Source of the DNA: Natrinema halophilum
Lineage (GTDB): Archaea > Halobacteriota > Halobacteria > Halobacteriales > Natrialbaceae
DNA: 64,000 nt
Direction of reading: 5' to 3'
Assembly (NCBI RefSeq): GCF_013402815.2
Contig: NZ_CP058601.1
Coordinates: 3,472,001-3,536,000, forward strand
In this document: positions 18,962-32,739 of the stretch, one piece after another
Layout of the letters: each line of letters begins with the position of its first letter
Position numbering within the stretch: position 1 is the first letter of the stretch
The notes under the pieces: generated by a model
Seen by the model: only the letters and a program-made list of their open reading frames with translations
What the model was told of the DNA's origin: nothing
Databases searched by the model: none
Position numbers and translations under genes: made by a program

Positions 18962-19936
18962 TCAGAACCGTCGCTCATACACCGTCCCCGACTCGCCGAC
19001 GACGAGACGGGGTGACCGGGCCGTACCGAGCGCGACTGCGTGCAACTCGTTGCCGGGCCGAAGGCGGACGCGGGGCTCCCAGCCGTCGAAGCTGCGTTCG
19101 TAGATCATGCCCGACGAGGAGACCGCCAGTGCGGTGTCTCGGTTTCGCGCGAGCGCCGTGATCGGCTGCTCGCCGAGGGTCGTACGCGACCAGTTGACGC
19201 CGTTGTAGCCGTAGACGGCACCGTTCCCGCCGGCGACCGTGACGTGGCCGGTGTCGATGGCGGCGACCGCAGCGAAATTGACGCCGGCTCCGTCGATGCC
19301 GATGCGGGTCCAGGTGACCCCGCCGTCGCGGGACTCGAAGACCCCGCCGTCGGTGTCGATGATATAGCCGTACGCGAGCGACGTGAGGTCGACGTCGGTC
19401 ACGCTCGAGCCGCTCCCGGGTTTGCTGACGGCGCCCCACTCGACGTCCGCACCGTCGCGTCGGCCGTTGAGGAGTTCACCGGAGCTGTTGATGACCGTGA
19501 TCCGTTCGTCGCCGGCCAGTCCGGCGGCGGCGATCGTCGTCCATGAGGTCGTCTTCTCTTTCGGTGCCGAAAAGTCAACGACGTGATCGGCGACGACGTC
19601 GTACAGGCCGAGTGCGCCGCTGTCCCCGGCCATCCATATCGCCTGGCCGTTGCTCGTCACCGCCGCGGTCCGGAGTCCGTCGCCCGCGTCCGAGAGGCCG
19701 TTCTCGAGAGCAACAGTCCAGTCGCCATCGGTGCGGGCGAGGACGACGCCATCCTCGCCGACGGCGTAGGCGCCCCGAGCTGTCGGTACGACGTCGTACA
19801 GCGCCGCGTCCGTAGGAACGTCGGCCGCAACCCACTCGCTGTCGGTCCCGCCGCAACCGGCCAGCGCAAGCGAGGCGGCCGCGCCGCCGACCGCTGCGAG
19901 GAAGCGCCGGCGCGTCGGACGGCAATCGGCCGTCAT
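18962..19936 (-). CDS. Tat lipoprotein with beta-propeller (BNR/Ycf48-like) fold
   Basis: 324 aa. TRRRFLAAVGGAAASLALAGC gives a twin-arginine signal and lipobox Cys28. The mature part has repeated blades, e.g. GAYAVGEDGVVL, AIWMAGDSGALGLYD, GGVFESRDGGVTW, ITALARNRDTALAV and LVVGESGTVYERRF. This resembles sialidase-Asp-box or Ycf48-like propellers used as scaffolds. Its ATG overlaps the stop of the upstream membrane-protein gene (19933-21570), so both are coupled and may form a surface complex. It is a paralogue of the propeller at 31354-32739. Confidence 0.85.
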   Translation of the reverse strand: MTADCRPTRRRFLAAVGGAAASLALAGCGGTDSEWVAADVPTDAALYDVVPTARGAYAVGEDGVVLARTDGDWTVALENGLSDAGDGLRTAAVTSNGQAIWMAGDSGALGLYDVVADHVVDFSAPKEKTTSWTTIAAAGLAGDERITVINSSGELLNGRRDGADVEWGAVSKPGSGSSVTDVDLTSLAYGYIIDTDGGVFESRDGGVTWTRIGIDGAGVNFAAVAAIDTGHVTVAGGNGAVYGYNGVNWSRTTLGEQPITALARNRDTALAVSSSGMIYERSFDGWEPRVRLRPGNELHAVALGTARSPRLVVGESGTVYERRF

Positions 19937-23289: not shown

Positions 23290-23435
23290 TGGTATAAACT
23301 GACACAATACTGAGAGTGTCTACAATAAAGATACGGACTCATAGGGCGCTCTAGACGTATGTTTCAGATATTTTGTGCGATAATGTTATGAATATATACA
23401 TCTTATGAGTGGGGGGTTCCTACGGCGGATGCGTT
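23290..23435. promoter_or_regulatory. AT-rich promoter region before the 147-aa membrane protein
   Basis: Within the 348-nt gap (23088-23435) the part from 23295 is AT-rich: ACAATAAAGATACGG, CAGATATTTTGTGCGATAATG and GAATATATACATC. The last is a good TATA element about 40 nt before the ATG at 23436. The rest of the gap (23088-23290) shows no gene. Confidence 0.5.
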
Positions 23436-23879
23436 ATGACACGTGGTGATCTCGCAGCCGTCGATTCGACCGATCGCGCGCCGTGGTACTGGTACGTCCT
23501 CATCGGCTATCCCGTTTTGAGTTTGCTCGGGATCGTCGCGCTCGCCCGTCTCACCGGCGGCGGCTCGGTTCTGGCGACGGGATTCGGAAGCATCGCCCTT
23601 CTGATCATCGTCACTGCAGTCGGCGCGGTTACGCTGCCGGCGATCTGGCGCGACGTCGACTTCGTCGTGACCGAAACCGAATCGTGGCGTCCCGATCGGG
23701 AGATATACGTCGGCGCGGCGGTCGCCGCACCGTTGCTCCTCGGCGTCCTCTCGGGGCTGGTGGCCGGATTCGGCATCGCGATCGCGATCGTGGTGGTCGC
23801 GTTCATGCTCTCGACGGTTACGGTCTGTCTCACGTACCTGTACAATCGACACCGTGAGGTCGGTCTGTTGACTCGCTGA
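23436..23879 (+). CDS. Four-helix membrane protein
   Basis: 147 aa from ATG 23436 (GTG/ATG further upstream in frame at 23409). Four hydrophobic segments: WYVLIGYPVLSLLGIVALA, SIALLIIVTAVGAVTLPAI, LLLGVLSGLVAGFGIAIAIVVVAFML, then VTVCLTYLYN. No signature motif recognised. Monocistronic, preceded by an AT-rich promoter and followed by the dispersed repeat copy B. Confidence 0.75.
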   Translation: MTRGDLAAVDSTDRAPWYWYVLIGYPVLSLLGIVALARLTGGGSVLATGFGSIALLIIVTAVGAVTLPAIWRDVDFVVTETESWRPDREIYVGAAVAAPLLLGVLSGLVAGFGIAIAIVVVAFMLSTVTVCLTYLYNRHREVGLLTR

Positions 23880-23928
23880 GAACGATCTGATTGCGGACGC
23901 CGCTTCGCGACGACGGTTGTCGTGGAAT

Positions 23929-24009
23929 CGATGTACCCACCGCTTGCCAAACGGCGGTCAGCGAGCGCTCGCTGGCTGCGAATTCGCGAGTCGGGTTGCA
24001 ATGACTTTC
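23929..24009. repeat. Dispersed palindromic repeat, copy B
   Basis: 81 nt matching 15486-15567. Here the core is a perfect 16-bp palindrome CAGCGAGCGCTCGCTG followed by GCGAATTCGC. Similarity weakens but continues for another 20-25 nt (CGACTACTA against CGTCTACTC). It lies intergenically upstream of the permease gene. The 3' part could overlap the permease transcript leader. Confidence 0.85.
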
Positions 24010-24282
24010 GGCGACTACTATCACGACGAGCGTCGGTGTCGATCCCGAACAGAGCAGAATCGACTCGGCGACTACCGTCCGCTGGTTTGGTTCGAATCCT
24101 CTAGGTTTCGTCCCATTTTATGGGGCACAATCTATTGGTTATTAGTGTTGGTTGGCCCGGACGACGCGCTCCCGGCGCGGATGACCTCCTGGCCTGACAG
24201 CACAGCCGCCATTATCCCCACAGCAGCCCGCTCACGCCGTTCTCCGCGATTCCGGTACGACGACGGTTCCTTCGATCACTCC

Positions 24283-25791
24283 ATGCTCTCAGCGACACAC
24301 CTCATCACCGACGCGTCCAGCCTCGCGCTGGCGGCGGGACGACCGCTTTCCATCCTGCTGCCGCCGGCGATCGATCACGGACCGGTCCTTACGGGGCCGC
24401 TCCCGACCGTTCAACCGACCGATTCGGGAGCTGTCGTTCCGAACGGCGGCGGACTCGGGTTTGCAGCCCGACTCGTCGGTTTGCTCGGCGCGTTCCTGTT
24501 AGGACTTCTCGAGGGCGCGGTCATCGCGTTCCGAATGGCCTGGGACACCTGGTGGGCGCTCGTCCTCGGCTTTACCATCACCGGCGCCGTCCAGGAGTTC
24601 GTCTCCGAAGACCGACTCACCGACTACCTCGGCGACGACGGCTGGCGGGAGATTGGCTACGGCACCTTCTTCGGCGCATCGTCCTCGAGTTGCTCTTTCT
24701 CGGCGGTAGCGACGTCACGAACGTTGTTCACCAAGGGCGCGTCGGCCGCGGCCAGTCTGGGCGCGTTCCAGTTTGCGAGTACGGATCTCGTTCTCGAACT
24801 CGCCCTCGTCGTGACGATCCTGCTGGGATGGCAGTTCGCCGCTGCGGAGATCGTCGGCGGGCTCGTCGCCGTCGCCGTGATCGCGGTCGTCTATCGGCGA
24901 TTCGTCCCTCAACCGTGGATCGACCGCGCACGAGCGCACGCGATAGCGCTCGAAGAAACCGAGTGTGCCACCTGCGGAATGGCCGCGGACCCGACCGACG
25001 ACGACACGCTTTCCCGGGAATTCGACGGCAAGCGGCGGTACTTCTGCTGTGGCGGCTGCCACAGCGCGTACGATCCCGACGATGACCGGGACGCGGTCAC
25101 CGCCGGTCCCGAACTCCTCTCGGGCGACCGCTGGCGGTCGGCGACTACGAACGCGATTCGCGAGTGGGACATGCTCTGGCGCGATATCGCCTTCGGATTC
25201 GTCATCGCGGGGTTGCTCGCCGCGCTCGTTCCCACGACGTGGTGGACGGCCCTCTTCGGCGTCGGCGCCGAAGGGACTCTCGCGCGGTCCGTCTCGAACG
25301 TCGTCATCGGCGCCATCGTTGGCGTCTTGACCTTCCTCTGTTCGGTCGGCAACGTTCCTTTCGCGCTCGTCCTCTGGCAGAACGGCGTCTCCTTCGGTGG
25401 CGTCCTCGCCTTCATCTTCGCGGATCTGCTGATCATCCCGCTGGTTCGGACCTACCGGCGCTATTACGGCATTCGAATGGCCGCGGTGATCTTCGTCGCA
25501 TTCTTCCTCGCGGCCGTCGTGGCCGGCCTCGTCGTGGAACTACTTTTCGGTGGTCTCGGCCTCATCCCGTCCGTCAGGACGGGAGGTGGCACGATCTCCG
25601 GGACGTTCACGACCCTGTTCAACGTCGTCGCCCTTCCGATCCTCGCGATCCAGATCTACGTCGCCCTCGAGCCGGAGCAACGCGTCCGAATCGGCAACCG
25701 GCTCGCGCCGCACGTCGCCGGCGTCATCTACCACGCCCACAAGCTCCTCGAGCGACTCGCCTACGCGCTCGAGGATCGCGGGCTGGAGTGA
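24283..25791 (+). CDS. Permease (DUF318/ArsP-like) with TRASH-like Cys motif
   Basis: About 502 aa from ATG 24283; ATG 24181 is an alternative. Two DUF318-type membrane halves (each with a SSSCSFSAVATSRTLFTKGASAAAS or LCSVGNVPFALVLW motif) flank a soluble insert holding CATCGMAADP and YFCCGGCHSAY, a YHS/TRASH-like four-Cys metal site. The family includes predicted metal or metalloid exporters (ArsP). Substrate inferred: a soft metal. A TATA-like TTTTATGG lies near 24115. Confidence 0.85.
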   Translation: MLSATHLITDASSLALAAGRPLSILLPPAIDHGPVLTGPLPTVQPTDSGAVVPNGGGLGFAARLVGLLGAFLLGLLEGAVIAFRMAWDTWWALVLGFTITGAVQEFVSEDRLTDYLGDDGWREIGYGTFFGASSSSCSFSAVATSRTLFTKGASAAASLGAFQFASTDLVLELALVVTILLGWQFAAAEIVGGLVAVAVIAVVYRRFVPQPWIDRARAHAIALEETECATCGMAADPTDDDTLSREFDGKRRYFCCGGCHSAYDPDDDRDAVTAGPELLSGDRWRSATTNAIREWDMLWRDIAFGFVIAGLLAALVPTTWWTALFGVGAEGTLARSVSNVVIGAIVGVLTFLCSVGNVPFALVLWQNGVSFGGVLAFIFADLLIIPLVRTYRRYYGIRMAAVIFVAFFLAAVVAGLVVELLFGGLGLIPSVRTGGGTISGTFTTLFNVVALPILAIQIYVALEPEQRVRIGNRLAPHVAGVIYHAHKLLERLAYALEDRGLE

Positions 25792-25930: not shown

Positions 25931-27346
25931 ATGACATCATCACCGACCGACAGTACCGAACGAATCGATCCGATCCGACTCGTCTGCCTCGTCGCCCTCG
26001 TGGCGAGCCACGGACTCGTTCGCCTGGCAGAACGCTACCTCCCCGAGTTCCTGTCCGCTCTCGGCTACGGGCCGATCGTCGTCGGATCGCTGGTGACGCT
26101 CGGTATGGGCGTTGCCGTGGTCGCATCAGATCGTTCGGACAACGTGTCCAACGACATGGCAACGACTCTCGAGACGACGGCGACCGTTGTGTTGTCGACG
26201 GCGCTCGCCGCCGTCGGCCTGTTCGCCTGGGCGGGGTCCCCGACGCTCGATACGCTGCTCGGGACACCTCTTTCGGCGCTTGGGTGGCTCGCCACTGGCG
26301 TCGTCCTCCTCCAGGCCTGGTACGTCGGCGGTCCCGGCCGACACCTGTGGCCGATCGATACGCGTGCCACCGCACAGACCTCTGGCCTCTCGAGCGCGCC
26401 AGCTGACGAATCCGACGGCGGCGACCGATCGGCTCGACGAACAGCCACTATCGACCGTCGAACCCGGACCGTCGTCGGTGCGCTCGGAGTCGCCGCCGCG
26501 GCCGTGTTCGCGACGGCGGCTGTCGCGAGCGCCGACACCGTCGGTGCCGGGTTCGCACTGATCGCCGCCACCGGCGCTGCCGTCGCCCTCGTCGGTGCGG
26601 TCGCGCTCGGAACCGTTCGCGATCGCTCGCCACTGCTCGGTGATCGGCTGCGAAGCGGCGGAGGAACGAACGACGAGCGGACCAACGACGGCGGAGCGAA
26701 CGACGCGTCGCTCGACGCCGACTCTTCGCTTACGGCCTTCCGGGACGCCGTCTCGAGGGTACCCGACCGCCGACGCTGGGCGGTCATCGGCGATGCGCTC
26801 GTCCGGGTCGCGACCGCAGGGATCGCGCCGTTTCTGATCCTTTTGGTCGTCGAGTACCGGGCGATTGCGCTTTCGGTCGGCGGTCTCTCGCTCGCGCCGG
26901 CCGCCGTCTTCGGGTTGTTCGTTCTCACGGAGGCTGGCGGTGCGGTCTTCGGTGCGATAGGGGCCCCTGCGCTCATCGATCACCTCGATCGGCGAGCGCT
27001 CCTCGCCGCCGGGCTCGCAGGTATTTCGTTGCTTCCGATGGCGATCATCGCCGCGCCGCCGCAGGCCGGCGTCGTCGCTGGCCTCTTCGGTCTCCTCGGC
27101 TGTCGCACCGCGATCGAGCCGCTCCGACCGACGGTCGGGACGAGCACTCGAGCGAGCCCCGTCCCCGGCTCGCGGCTCCCTGAGGAGATCCGGACGGCCG
27201 TCCGAATAGCCATCGTGCCCGCGCCGCTGGTCGGGGGGATCCTGTACGCGATCGATCCGCTCGTGGCGTTTACCGCCGCGACGACGGTCGGGCTGCTCGG
27301 CGTCCGCGAATTGGGACGTGCGTTCACCTTCGGTCGTCACCGATGA
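25931..27346 (+). CDS. MFS-like membrane transporter
   Basis: 471 aa. About ten hydrophobic segments, with a long polar central loop (residues 145-185) and another near 245-275. It carries some MFS-like features (e.g. the RLAERYLPEFLSALGYGP start and the LIDHLDRRALLAAGLAGISLLPMAII motif). The first transmembrane half is divergent. It is coupled by ATGA to the oxidase subunit, suggesting a joint role, perhaps in cofactor supply or assembly (inference). Confidence 0.72.
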   Translation: MTSSPTDSTERIDPIRLVCLVALVASHGLVRLAERYLPEFLSALGYGPIVVGSLVTLGMGVAVVASDRSDNVSNDMATTLETTATVVLSTALAAVGLFAWAGSPTLDTLLGTPLSALGWLATGVVLLQAWYVGGPGRHLWPIDTRATAQTSGLSSAPADESDGGDRSARRTATIDRRTRTVVGALGVAAAAVFATAAVASADTVGAGFALIAATGAAVALVGAVALGTVRDRSPLLGDRLRSGGGTNDERTNDGGANDASLDADSSLTAFRDAVSRVPDRRRWAVIGDALVRVATAGIAPFLILLVVEYRAIALSVGGLSLAPAAVFGLFVLTEAGGAVFGAIGAPALIDHLDRRALLAAGLAGISLLPMAIIAAPPQAGVVAGLFGLLGCRTAIEPLRPTVGTSTRASPVPGSRLPEEIRTAVRIAIVPAPLVGGILYAIDPLVAFTAATTVGLLGVRELGRAFTFGRHR

Positions 27347-28884
27347 CGAGACCATCGACGCCCGGACGCGCGCTCGAGGGCACTCGGAACTCGCTCGACG
27401 GACTCTCGAGCGTCGACCATCGACGGCTCGGGCGCTGGCACCTCGGTCTCGCGCTGGTGATGGGGCTGTGGGGCGGCCTCGACGCCCTGTCCCTTCGAAC
27501 GGCCCTCGTGACGCCGGGACTGAACCGCTGGTCGGCAGAAACCTACAACGCCTTTTTTACGACCCACGGACTGACGATGTTGTTTCTGTTCGTGTTGCCG
27601 GCGATCTGGGGATTCGCGTACGCCGCCGTTCCTCCGCTGATCGAGGCCGAGAGAACCGCATTTCCGCGACTCGGCGTCTGGGCGTTCTGGCTGCAAGTGC
27701 CGGCGGCGCTCTCGATCCGTGCGGGGACGATCGGCGGCATTCTCGGACTGGCCGGGCTCGAACCGATCGCGAGCGGGTGGACGTTGTACCCGCCACTGAG
27801 CGTACTATCGCCGAATCCCGCCGTCGACGCCGTCCTCGTCGGACTCGTCCTCGTTGCCGTCGGGACGACGGCGACGGCCGGCAATCTCGTCGCTACGATC
27901 CTGCGCAGCCGCCGGATTCGGTGGCTCGACGTGGACACGTTCACCTGGACGGTGCTGACGGCCGGCGCGATGGCGATCGTCGCCTTCCCGGTTCTGGCAG
28001 GTACGGTCGCGCTGATGGTTGCCGACCGTTCGCTGGGAACCGCGTTCGTCATCAGCGGCGGCGGGCCGCTGGTCTGGCAGCACCTGTTCTGGTTCTTCGC
28101 CCACCCGCTGGTGTACATCCTGGTGTTGCCGCCGATGGGAATCGTCAGTCACGTCCTCCCGCGCTTCGCCGGTCGGCGGCTGTTCGGCCGCCGGTCGTCG
28201 GTCTACTCGACGCTCGCGATCGGCGTCGTCTCCTTTACCGTCTGGGCTCACCACATGTTCGTGACAGGTATGAGTCCAGCCGTGCGGACGGTCTTCATGT
28301 TCACCACGCTGGCGGTGGCCGTTCCGAGTTCGGCGAAGCTCTGCAATTGGCTCGGAACGCTGTGGGGCGGGTCGATCCGTTACACCGCACCGATGATCGC
28401 CGCCGTCGCCGCCGTCGGTTTCTTCGTCGTTGGCGGGGTCACGGGCGTCTTCCTCGCCGTCGTCCCGATCAACGCACAGTACACCGGGACCTACTACGTC
28501 GTCGCCCACTTCCATCTGCTGCTCGCCGGGTTCGTCGGCCTCGCTCTCGTCGCCGGCGCTTACTACTGGTTCCCGCTGCTTTCCGGCCGTCGACTCGAGC
28601 CGGACCTCGCTCGGCTGCACGGGTGGCTGACGATCGTCGGCGTCGCGGTGACCTTCGGCGCGCTGTTGCTCGTCGGACTCGCCGTGCTTCCCCGACGTAT
28701 TGCGACGTATCCGCCAGCGTACGCGCCGCTCCACCAACTTGCGACCGTCGGCGCCTACGTGATCGCAGCCGGCCAGCTGGTTTTCCTCGTTAACCTCGGC
28801 CGCTCGCTGTTGGTTTGCGATCCCGTTCCCGCCGATCCGTGGGACCTCGAGGACGGTCCGTCACACACACGCGAATGGCGGTAG
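27343..28884 (+). CDS. Heme-copper oxidase subunit I
   Basis: 513 aa. All metal ligands are present: low-spin heme His75 and His391, high-spin heme His389, CuB His254, His303 and His304, and the cross-linked Tyr258 in HPLVY. The usual proton-channel Glu of HPEVY is Leu256, as in B-type (ba3-like) oxidases, which use a K-channel analogue only. No subunit II or III gene is adjacent; its overlap with the MFS-like gene (ATGA) is unusual. Terminal electron acceptor oxygen is assumed from family. Confidence 0.92.
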   Translation: MTRPSTPGRALEGTRNSLDGLSSVDHRRLGRWHLGLALVMGLWGGLDALSLRTALVTPGLNRWSAETYNAFFTTHGLTMLFLFVLPAIWGFAYAAVPPLIEAERTAFPRLGVWAFWLQVPAALSIRAGTIGGILGLAGLEPIASGWTLYPPLSVLSPNPAVDAVLVGLVLVAVGTTATAGNLVATILRSRRIRWLDVDTFTWTVLTAGAMAIVAFPVLAGTVALMVADRSLGTAFVISGGGPLVWQHLFWFFAHPLVYILVLPPMGIVSHVLPRFAGRRLFGRRSSVYSTLAIGVVSFTVWAHHMFVTGMSPAVRTVFMFTTLAVAVPSSAKLCNWLGTLWGGSIRYTAPMIAAVAAVGFFVVGGVTGVFLAVVPINAQYTGTYYVVAHFHLLLAGFVGLALVAGAYYWFPLLSGRRLEPDLARLHGWLTIVGVAVTFGALLLVGLAVLPRRIATYPPAYAPLHQLATVGAYVIAAGQLVFLVNLGRSLLVCDPVPADPWDLEDGPSHTREWR

Positions 28885-29118: not shown

Positions 29119-29445
29119 ATGTCGACCACAACAAGTACCGATGTCGCACTGATGCTCGTCCAACTGATCGCGATAACGATCCCGTCGACCGTCGTCCTGA
29201 TCAAACAGCTCCGACAATCGGATAATCTCGAGTGGCGGTTCCGGAGGCTAAGCTTCGGACTCGTCGCGTCGTGTATCGCGCTGTTGCTCACGGCGGCGAT
29301 TTCAGTCCTCTCGTATTTCATCGCGGGATTGAACCTACCAAACGCCCTCTATGCGGGACTCGTGCTCGTGATCATCGGCCTGCTTCCCCTGGGTGCGTTC
29401 ATCGCCGTCCTCTACCGTGAACATCGGAAAGAATACGGCCCCTGA
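29119..29445 (+). CDS. 108-aa membrane protein
   Basis: Three membrane segments (LMLVQLIAITIPSTVVLI, LVASCIALLLTAAISVLSYFI, LYAGLVLVIIGLLPLGAFIAVLY) joined by a basic loop RQSDNLEWRFRRL. C-terminus ends charged in REHRKEYGP. No recognised family. Confidence 0.72.
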   Translation: MSTTTSTDVALMLVQLIAITIPSTVVLIKQLRQSDNLEWRFRRLSFGLVASCIALLLTAAISVLSYFIAGLNLPNALYAGLVLVIIGLLPLGAFIAVLYREHRKEYGP

Positions 29446-29531: not shown

Positions 29532-29921
29532 ATGTCCAATCACACCCCCACGAACACGAACTGCAGTGATGAACCGGCCACCGACGACGGCGAGAAATCG
29601 GACTCTGACGACATCTCGGAACCTCGCCCGTTGACGAACCTGACCGGCTTCAAGCGCGACCAACTGTTCGTCATCCGAATGCTCGCGGACCGCAACCCCC
29701 ACGGCCTCGTTATCAAGGACAAACTCGACTGCTATTACGACGAGGAGATCAACCAGGGACGGCTCTACCAGAACCTGGGCGAACTCGTCGACGAAGGGTA
29801 CGTCGAGAAGCATCCCCTCGACGGCCGAACTAACGCCTACAGGCCGAGTACGCGCGCGAACAGGCGCCTCGAGGAACACTACGAGTGGGAGCGACGCTGC
29901 CTCTTTTGCGATCTCCCATAG
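29532..29921 (+). CDS. PadR-family regulator with acidic N-terminal extension
   Basis: 129 aa. Residues 1-33 are polar and acidic. Then LTNLTGFKRDQLFVIRMLAD, GRLYQNLGELVDEGYVEKHPLDGRTNAYRPS form the winged helix. A terminal CLFC pair is unusual for this family and might sense metal or redox state (inference). Paralogue of 2385-2660. Preceded by the tRNA-like hairpin. Confidence 0.88.
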   Translation: MSNHTPTNTNCSDEPATDDGEKSDSDDISEPRPLTNLTGFKRDQLFVIRMLADRNPHGLVIKDKLDCYYDEEINQGRLYQNLGELVDEGYVEKHPLDGRTNAYRPSTRANRRLEEHYEWERRCLFCDLP

Positions 29922-30073: not shown

Positions 30074-31357
30074 ATGACTACATTTAACGACTCCACTACT
30101 GACGAACCCAGTCGAACAGATCCAGATCTTGACGCCCCGTGGACGTACGCGACAGCCGCTGCGCGCCGTCTCGGGGTTCCCGACGATATCGAACAACGAC
30201 TCTTGTATCCCACGCACCGACAGCGGATCACGGTGCCGTTCGAACGCGATGACGGGTCGCGGGGCGTCTGCGAAGGGTATCGCGTCCGCCACGACGCCGT
30301 TCGCGGCCGCTACCTCGGCCCTCATCGGTACGACCTTTCGCTGACCGGTAACGACTGCGCCGGGCTCGCGGCCGCGACGACGGTTAGCGCGGCGATCGCG
30401 GACGTCCCGTTCGGCGGCGCAGCGGGCGGCATCGCCGTCGACCCGACGACGCTCTCGAGGGACGAACGCGTCAGTCTCACCCGGTCGTATGCGAGTCGCA
30501 TCAACGGACTCGGTCCGGAAGACGACGTCCTCTTCCCCGGCGTCGGAACCGACGAGCGCACCATGGCCCAGATCGCCGATGCGGTCTCGGATCGCGTCGA
30601 CAGGCCTCAGAACGCGGCCGTCGCAGGGAAACCGCCAGCGCTCGGCGGCCATCGAGAGATCACTCGAGCCGCCGGACACAGCGTCGCCCACGTCACACAG
30701 GACGTACTGGAAACGGATCTCGACCGACCGCTTTCTGACGCGACGGTCGCCATCTACGGAACCGGCCAACTCGGCGCGACGACCGCCCGATTGCTCGAGT
30801 TCTGGGGCGCCACCGTCATCGCGATGTGCAACGATCAGGCCGGGCTCGCGGCACCCGAAAGCGAAAACGGCCTCGACACCGATCTGGCTCCCAGCTACCT
30901 CGAACGACCGGGGGCACTCTCGGCGTACGACGACGGCACGACGACCGGAACCGAGAACGTTCTCGAGCAGGACGTCGACGTGCTGATTCTCGCTGCGCCC
31001 GCAACGGCGGTGACCGCCGAAAACGCCGACGAGATCCAGGCCGATCTCGTCGTCGAGGGTGCCACCGGAAGCGTGACTCCCGGTGGCCAGAGCGTCCTCG
31101 CCGAACGGGACAGCACGGTCGTTCCCGACGTGTTAGCGGCAGTCGGCCGACCGATCGCAGCCCACCTCGAGTGGGTCGAAAGCCTCGGACGCGACCAGAT
31201 GAGCGATGCGCGCGTGACCAACGAGTTCGGCTACGCGCTCACCGACGCTGTCGACGACGTGAGAGACCGCCGCGAGCGATGTTCGCTGAGTTGGCGCGAA
31301 GCAGCCTACAGCGTGGGCCTCTCCCGGGTCGCGGCGGCGTACGAGGTGGTTCGATGA
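30074..31357 (+). CDS. Glutamate-dehydrogenase-like protein lacking catalytic residues
   Basis: 427 aa with the two-domain Glu/Leu/Phe/Val dehydrogenase architecture. The Rossmann part is intact (ATVAIYGTGQLGATTARLLE). By manual alignment the substrate lysines and Asp are replaced: K89 by Leu81, K113 by Ser105, K125 by Ala117 (in PFGGAAGGI rather than GGxKGG), and D165 by Gly156 (FPGVGT rather than APDVGT). Deamination seems impossible, so a pseudoenzyme role as an NAD(P)-responsive protein is plausible (inference). Its stop overlaps the start of the next propeller gene. Confidence 0.85.
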   Translation: MTTFNDSTTDEPSRTDPDLDAPWTYATAAARRLGVPDDIEQRLLYPTHRQRITVPFERDDGSRGVCEGYRVRHDAVRGRYLGPHRYDLSLTGNDCAGLAAATTVSAAIADVPFGGAAGGIAVDPTTLSRDERVSLTRSYASRINGLGPEDDVLFPGVGTDERTMAQIADAVSDRVDRPQNAAVAGKPPALGGHREITRAAGHSVAHVTQDVLETDLDRPLSDATVAIYGTGQLGATTARLLEFWGATVIAMCNDQAGLAAPESENGLDTDLAPSYLERPGALSAYDDGTTTGTENVLEQDVDVLILAAPATAVTAENADEIQADLVVEGATGSVTPGGQSVLAERDSTVVPDVLAAVGRPIAAHLEWVESLGRDQMSDARVTNEFGYALTDAVDDVRDRRERCSLSWREAAYSVGLSRVAAAYEVVR

Positions 31358-32739
31358 TCGACCGATTCGACGAGTCGTTGCGGGAGACCGTCGACTGGCT
31401 CAAGCGAGTCATTCCGGCACGCAGGGATGCGGACGATGACGACGAACCGGACGCTGACGATGACGACGAACCGGACGCTGACGATGACGACGAACCGGAT
31501 GCGGATGACGACGAACCGGACGCTGACGATGACGACGGACCGGATGCGGATGACGACGGACCGGACGCGGACGACGACACCCCTGCCGAGATCCGCAATC
31601 AATCGGGGTCAGGACCGTCAAGTGACGGCTCGAGCGGGGAGAATGAAACCCGGTCCGACGGCGGCAATCCGGCCGCCGACTCGTCCGACGGCAGAGCCAA
31701 CGGCGAGGCCGAGACGTGGCAGCCGGCCGAGTCGCCAACGTCGCGGACCTTACACGGTGTCGTTCACGGTCAGGACGGTCCCTACGCATGCGGCGAGGGA
31801 GGGCTCTTGCTCCATCGTGGAGCCGACGGATGGCAGATCCTTCTCGAGCGCGGACCTGGCGTCTCCGAGAACACCCTTCGGTCGATCGCGGCGACCGACG
31901 ACGGCTGTCGCGTCTGGTTCGCCGGGGACAGTGGTGCGCTCGGCTATTACGATGTGGCCGACGGTCATCTCAGTGATTACTCCGCGCCGATGGAGAAGAC
32001 GAGTACCTGGGAATCGATCGCCGTTACCGGCCGAACCGGCGAGGAACGCGTTCGTATCGCGAACGGCTCCGGCGAAGTCCTCGACTGCATCATGGACGAC
32101 GACGACTGCCCGGTGTGGGGCGAGGTGGTCGAACCGGGGGGCGGTTCGACGATCCCCGGCCTGACGGCTGGGCCCGACGGGTTCTACGCCGTCGACACCA
32201 GCGGCGGCGCCTATTTCGAACCTCGACCCGACGACCCGCCCGGGGCAGACGCGGCCGACCGCGATCCGAGGCACGGCAAACCGGCGGATACGGAGCCAAC
32301 AGACACCGATCCGTCGGACGAGTGGAAACGTATCGGCGTCAGAAACGCGCAGGTGAACTTCCAGGACGTGTGGGCCGGCGAGCGATCCGTGTTCATCGCC
32401 GGCGCTGATGGAATCGCGTACCGCTACGATCCCCGTTGCGAGAACTGGACGCCGCTGGCCGTCGGCCAGGGTGCCCTCCAGTCGATTCGGTCGACCAGAT
32501 CGAATACGATCGCGGTCGCGACCGGCGGCCGAATCTACCAACGCGACGATAGCGTCCGGTGGCACGAACTGGAGGCGCCCACGGAACAGTCGCTGCTCGG
32601 TCTCGCGCTCGCCCGCTCGAGGGCCGACGTCGACGAGGGGCTGGCAACCACCCCCGTCGACGTCGCCGTCGGATCGGGTGGCGTGATCCTCGAACGCGAT
32701 CGGACGAAATCCTCGGATTCTGGCGGCGTTAAGCCGTGA
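31354..32739 (+). CDS. Asp-rich beta-propeller protein coupled to the dehydrogenase-like protein
   Basis: 461 aa from the ATG at 31354. Residues 1-25 are an amphipathic helix. Residues 26-76 form an Asp/Glu/Pro tract. From about 125, blades share sequence with the lipoprotein at 18962-19936: FAGDSGALGYYDVADGHLSDYSAP against MAGDSGALGLYDV...DFSAPKEK, then GTSTWESIAVTG. There is no signal peptide, so this copy appears cytosolic, unlike its paralogue. The coupling (ATGA) predicts a complex with the dehydrogenase-like protein. Confidence 0.82.
   Translation: MIDRFDESLRETVDWLKRVIPARRDADDDDEPDADDDDEPDADDDDEPDADDDEPDADDDDGPDADDDGPDADDDTPAEIRNQSGSGPSSDGSSGENETRSDGGNPAADSSDGRANGEAETWQPAESPTSRTLHGVVHGQDGPYACGEGGLLLHRGADGWQILLERGPGVSENTLRSIAATDDGCRVWFAGDSGALGYYDVADGHLSDYSAPMEKTSTWESIAVTGRTGEERVRIANGSGEVLDCIMDDDDCPVWGEVVEPGGGSTIPGLTAGPDGFYAVDTSGGAYFEPRPDDPPGADAADRDPRHGKPADTEPTDTDPSDEWKRIGVRNAQVNFQDVWAGERSVFIAGADGIAYRYDPRCENWTPLAVGQGALQSIRSTRSNTIAVATGGRIYQRDDSVRWHELEAPTEQSLLGLALARSRADVDEGLATTPVDVAVGSGGVILERDRTKSSDSGGVKP
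31429..31581 (+). repeat. Acidic tandem repeat inside the propeller gene
   Basis: About seven imperfect units of 18-24 nt encoding (D)DDDEPDA, shifting to DDDGPDA near the end. Length polymorphism is likely among strains. Confidence 0.9.

Follow-up and report, generated by a model that had tools for sequence, protein, structure and literature searches.

What could a glutamate dehydrogenase (GDH) homologue contribute to a cell when the residues with which its relatives act on glutamate are gone? The question is raised by an open reading frame at positions 30074–31357 (+) of a 64,000-nucleotide stretch of the Natrinema halophilum genome (contig NZ_CP058601.1; hereafter, the window). The frame encodes 427 residues, opens with the ATG at 30074, which is the sole plausible start, and contains no internal stops. 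We refer to its product as GDHL, for GDH-like pseudoenzyme. An earlier note on this DNA had described it as a maintained pseudoenzyme, perhaps an NAD(P)(H)-binding sensor or scaffold, and had proposed alignment to GDH families, dN/dS in close relatives and structure prediction as checks.

Active-site residues of GDHL

GDHL matches both PF02812 (5e-28, 97.7 bits) and PF00208 (1e-34, 120.4 bits) above the gathering score, and these two domains, together with the GDH fold described below, place it in the Glu/Leu/Phe/Val (ELFV) dehydrogenase superfamily fold. It is closest in kind to the haloarchaeal GdhB enzymes (NF041398; PF02812 plus PF00208), which it resembles in fold, length and domain order and which are its nearest catalytic relatives, at about 41–45% identity. 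Yet it scores 344.3 bits against the NF041398 equivalog, below the 620-bit cut-off, and its NCBI annotation goes no further than ‘Glu/Leu/Phe/Val dehydrogenase dimerization domain-containing protein’. No description of the protein or of the gene cassette that carries it was found in the papers searched, a collection with few subscription journals.

We aligned GDHL with the GdhB and the GdhA-like GDH of its own genome, a Thermotoga GDH, and Thermus GdhA and GdhB. Leu81, Ser105, Ala117 and Gly156 fell at the sites of K89, K113, K125 and D165 (Clostridium numbering), which we take to be the active-site lysines and the catalytic aspartate of GDHs, and the four substitutions proposed by the earlier note were thus confirmed. 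The equivalent of Ser380, the substrate serine, is Ala363. None of the residues expected of a catalytic glutamate dehydrogenase (Lys89, Lys113, Lys125, Asp165 and Ser380) is therefore present in the window protein.

A search that covered 29 genomes from the genus, 125 from the family and 392 from the order gave 24 GDHL orthologues, all full-length, stop-free and from Natrialbaceae, with identities of 46–86% (that of genome G120 being the most distant). One of them lies on plasmid NZ_CP084883.1 of Natrinema zhouii, which belongs to the window's own genus group. Lysine is absent at positions 81, 105 and 117 in all 24 orthologues and present at all three in 48 of 48 GdhB-type GDHs. The substrate serine follows the same pattern, being alanine in 24/24 orthologues and kept in 48/48 GdhB relatives. 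A single-genome error or a misalignment behind the lysine loss is ruled out by the 24 orthologues. Loss of the catalytic aspartate holds for the window protein but not for the group as a whole, since it is gone in only 11 of the 24 (seven Gly, three Glu, one Asn) and still Asp in the other 13. The threonine of the TGK motif, Asn331, Asn356 and Gly359 are missing from most or all orthologues. Judged by its sequence, GDHL is without the residues for glutamate binding and hydride transfer.

Ala117 is fixed in 24/24 orthologues as part of an invariant GGAAGG motif, and the stretch around it, residues 101–120, is the best-conserved part of the protein. Also invariant are Lys186 (in GKP), Gly82, Arg70 and many glycines of the cleft. 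Positions 81, 105 and 156 vary among orthologues and mostly carry inert residues, and no new candidate catalytic lysine or aspartate has been gained in the cleft. The invariance of GGAAGG and the conservation of its surroundings suggest that the dead site is being held in shape rather than left to drift.

Selection, fold and nucleotide-binding features

In close pairs, dN/dS was 0.08–0.21 for GDHL, compared with 0.08–0.14 for active GdhB from the same genomes or near ones, indicating purifying selection. Relative to GdhB, 87 positions are kept identical in GDHL and 23 are fixed to a new residue. An AF2 monomer model reached a pLDDT of 87.4 and a pTM of 0.89 with a 66-row alignment that included GdhB rows; with the 24 orthologues alone the N-domain was poor (pLDDT 68). 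When superimposed on the best-matching GDH crystal chains, the better model gives TM scores of 0.90–0.94 and an rmsd of 1.8 Å, and a complete GDH fold is thus predicted. Altogether, the intact orthologues, the low dN/dS, the full fold and the fixed genomic context described below bear out the view of a maintained pseudoenzyme, and contradict a decaying pseudogene with relaxed selection and broken frames.

Nucleotide binding fared less well. The Rossmann motif GTGQLG (residues 229–234) is intact in the window protein, as had been noted, but in roughly half of the orthologues it has degenerated, the second glycine of GxGxxG being lost in 10/24. The acidic position after Rossmann beta-2, an aspartate, is lost in 23/24 (to Ser, Asn or Gly), and the TGK threonine in 21/24. 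Because these features decay across the orthologues, conserved NAD sensing, the function the earlier note had thought possible, appears unlikely, and nucleotide binding, if there is any, is not a conserved property of GDHL as far as the sequences tell. In three genomes of one genus (L039, L043 and L044), the Rossmann domain carries an acidic insertion of about 16–30 residues, rich in Asp, Ser, Gly and Glu, around residue 258.

The membrane cassette around GDHL

GDHL belongs to a cassette of eight genes. It begins with a small membrane protein of 156 residues (23409–23879, +) and an ArsP_1/SO_0444-like permease with a TRASH-like Cys motif (23917–25791, +), whose true start is probably downstream of the listed TTG. 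There follow an MFS-like multi-TM protein of 471 residues (25931–27346, +), which gave no Pfam match and is called ‘transporter’ in N. zhouii, and, overlapping it by 4 nt, an orphan COX1-family protein of 513 residues (27343–28884, +). A small membrane protein of 108 residues (29119–29445, +) and a PadR-family winged-helix regulator (29532–29921, +; PF03551, 3.6e-08) come next, the latter directly upstream of GDHL, and a Ycf48-like propeller protein (31354–32739, +) closes the cassette. The gene order is the same in the window and in 23 of 23 relatives examined, with the outermost gene lying off the fetched stretch in some.

The propeller protein, in which an N-terminal acidic repeat (DDDDEPDA) precedes Ycf48-like repeats, is found in all 24 cassettes. 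Its start overlaps the GDHL stop by 4 nt (ATGA), an arrangement of translational coupling. It had no match in Pfam, NCBIfam or PDB sequences, and its propeller fold is suggested by the PF14870 (PSII_BNR) match of a paralogue at 18962–19936 (−). This paralogue has a twin-arginine/lipobox-like N-terminus, and many relatives also carry a paralogue 10–12 kb upstream of the cassette. The DDDDEPDA tandem repeat spans window positions of about 31430–31580 (+), near the propeller N-terminus, and varies widely in length among orthologues.

Cassette-type COX1 (at least 63% identity) occurs, among the 125 family genomes, in exactly the 24 that have GDHL. In the rest of the order the cassette, PadR included, mostly stands without any GDH. 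In one GDH-less cassette (L107:6661–8899, +), a Na/H exchanger-family protein and a TrkA_C protein occupy the slot between COX1 and PadR. The N. zhouii cassette (L167; NZ_CP084883.1, 40489–59763) is carried by a 465-kb plasmid, where its neighbours are another gene of the COX1 family, a DUF2182 gene and a TFB gene. Two cassettes of family f17, L106 (genome G233) and L108 (G215), hold a GDH in the very slot of GDHL, beside PadR and between it and the propeller; unlike GDHL, these proteins have every active-site residue, with all lysines, the aspartate, the serine and the NAD residues intact, and on their sequence they are presumably active enzymes. A separate, partly degenerate GDH occupies the slot in genome G029 (L109:7617–8915, +). 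There the three lysines and the aspartate have become Leu, Gln, Met and Gly, but, in contrast to GDHL, to which it is 38% identical, the Rossmann motif, its aspartate and the Ser380 equivalent are kept; it resembles an intermediate, or else a case of parallel loss. The cassette context, which the earlier note had missed, is a stronger lead than NAD sensing.

GDHL is not the only cassette member to have changed. We take the residue roles in the COX1-family protein (D-pathway, K-pathway, CuB histidine and heme ligands) to be those of aa3-type oxidases. In the window protein HPEVY reads HPLVY, and across the GDHL cassettes the glutamate of this motif is replaced by Leu in 22 of 24 and by Gln in one, leaving a single Glu; it is thus lost in 23/24, versus 0/11 in other cassettes. 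At the D-pathway entrance the asparagine is gone and the aspartate mostly gone, and a CuB histidine is replaced in five of the 24, again versus 0/11. The heme ligands, the HH pair, the tyrosine and the K-pathway lysine are kept in 24/24, and dN/dS of COX1 from the GDHL cassette is 0.10–0.30, similar to that of GDHL. D-pathway and CuB residues are intact in those 11 further cassettes and in canonical COX1 controls from haloarchaea (two full and one partial). The cassette contains no subunit II gene. That two of its proteins have lost enzymatic residues and yet stay conserved suggests that the module as a whole took on another role, and not that one gene was simply lost, with the co-variation of GDHL and COX1 representing one lineage and not many independent events, save for the separate CuB histidine losses.

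Origin and proposed role of GDHL

In a tree of 79 GDHs, GDHL and three cassette GDHs formed one clade with a support of 99/100, which was kept after the longest branches were removed (SH-aLRT 100), although the long branches of the GDHL stem, G029 and G120 make fine placement uncertain. Placing GDHL outside GdhB and the intact cassette GDHs was rejected (AU p 0.011), and GDHL has ten derived residues in common with the intact GDHs of the cassette, G215 and G233 being its sister or near-sister. The groups in this tree were named after a first tree had been seen, and cassette GDHs beyond Natrialbaceae are sampled sparsely. The intact GDHs in f17, taken together with this kinship, indicate that an active GDH was recruited and that catalysis was lost later. 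Most likely, to judge from the sequences, an active enzyme of the GdhB type, the evolutionary source of GDHL, entered the cassette once and then lost catalysis in Natrialbaceae. A common origin with Thermus GdhA was rejected as a joint clade (AU p 0.00268), and the likeness in GGAAGG is thus convergent.

The main rival to a role within the cassette is a regulatory one outside it. GDHL could be the regulatory subunit of an active GDH, forming mixed hexamers with GdhB and conveying an allosteric signal. There is a direct precedent in Thermus thermophilus, where, according to PMC9570180 (citing Tomita 2010, 2011, 2019), GdhA is catalytically inactive and regulatory for GdhB. Thermus GdhA (regulatory subunit of a hetero-hexameric GDH, PDB 3AOE) is the best PDB sequence match of GDHL and carries the same Lys-to-Ala change in an identical GGAAGG; further GDH genes are found in every GDHL genome, and GDHL retains the dimerisation domain. 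However, the joint clade with Thermus GdhA is rejected (AU p 0.003), and the arginine that anchors leucine in the Thermus protein is lost in 24/24 orthologues (to Ser, Ala or Gln), although the aspartate of that site is kept in 23/24. Two of the three lysines and the aspartate survive in Thermus GdhA, whereas the window GDHL lacks all four. GDHL also tracks the COX1 cassette and not gdhB, even though nearly every genome of the family has GdhB. The identity between GDHL and GdhB is only about 43%. Thermus GdhA works in a heterohexamer; the genomic partner of GDHL is the COX1 cassette. We therefore consider such a regulatory subunit rather unlikely, although no other alternative weighs as much.

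It is improbable that GDHL is still an enzyme, with another substrate or chemistry built on the retained Rossmann domain. The fold and cleft are retained with their invariant Lys186, Gly82, Arg70 and glycines, and the 23 positions fixed to a new residue would fit such a change, but the cleft has gained no candidate catalytic residue, positions 81, 105 and 156 are free to vary and mostly hold inert residues, and the NAD-binding features decay. If anything more doubtful is a sensor of NAD(P)(H) or amino acids acting through the neighbouring PadR. PadR lies directly upstream of GDHL in all 24 cassettes and the window protein has an intact GTGQLG; against this, in most other haloarchaea PadR and the rest of the cassette endure with no GDH among them, and the nucleotide-binding residues are unconserved across orthologues. 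That the gene is a decaying relic, functionless today, is very hard to credit: the active site is lost, the nucleotide-binding motif partly so, and the GDHL stem branch is longer than that of GdhB, but 24 stop-free frames, the dN/dS of 0.08–0.21, the 87 positions identical to GdhB and the perfect co-occurrence with the cassette all speak against decay.

With moderate confidence, we favour the reading that GDHL is a catalytically dead GDH homologue kept as a non-catalytic subunit of the conserved membrane cassette, because of its dead site, predicted fold, purifying selection, co-inheritance and descent. GDHL would still oligomerise through the GDH dimerisation domain and, given its position and retention, may act in the complex as a scaffold or by sensing a ligand. 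The propeller protein, to which it is translationally coupled, would be its first partner and could link it to the COX1-like membrane protein, and the cassette may have shifted from a redox or energy role to one in regulation, sensing or assembly. More tentatively, the Natrialbaceae cassette might have been converted wholesale from catalysis to a non-catalytic complex for redox/gas or metabolite sensing (or assembly), in which the Ycf48-like propeller would organise two proteins: an orphan COX1 that keeps its heme ligands but not its D-pathway, and sometimes lacks a CuB ligand, and a dead GDH whose forerunner in the ancestral cassette was active.

Very few cases of a dead GDH homologue retaining a function are known, Thermus GdhA being the one found here, and GDHL represents a second case, which arose independently and arrived at the same GGAAGG. 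Inactive GDH subunits as such were already known; in the papers searched we found no account of the cassette, of the intact forms that survive or of the changes in COX1 that run in parallel. As the intact form is alive in the same slot elsewhere, and with the accompanying COX1 losses, the path from enzyme to pseudoenzyme is testable by comparing cassettes of the G215/G233 type with those of the GDHL type. The GDHL cassette points to an uncharacterised membrane module of haloarchaea.
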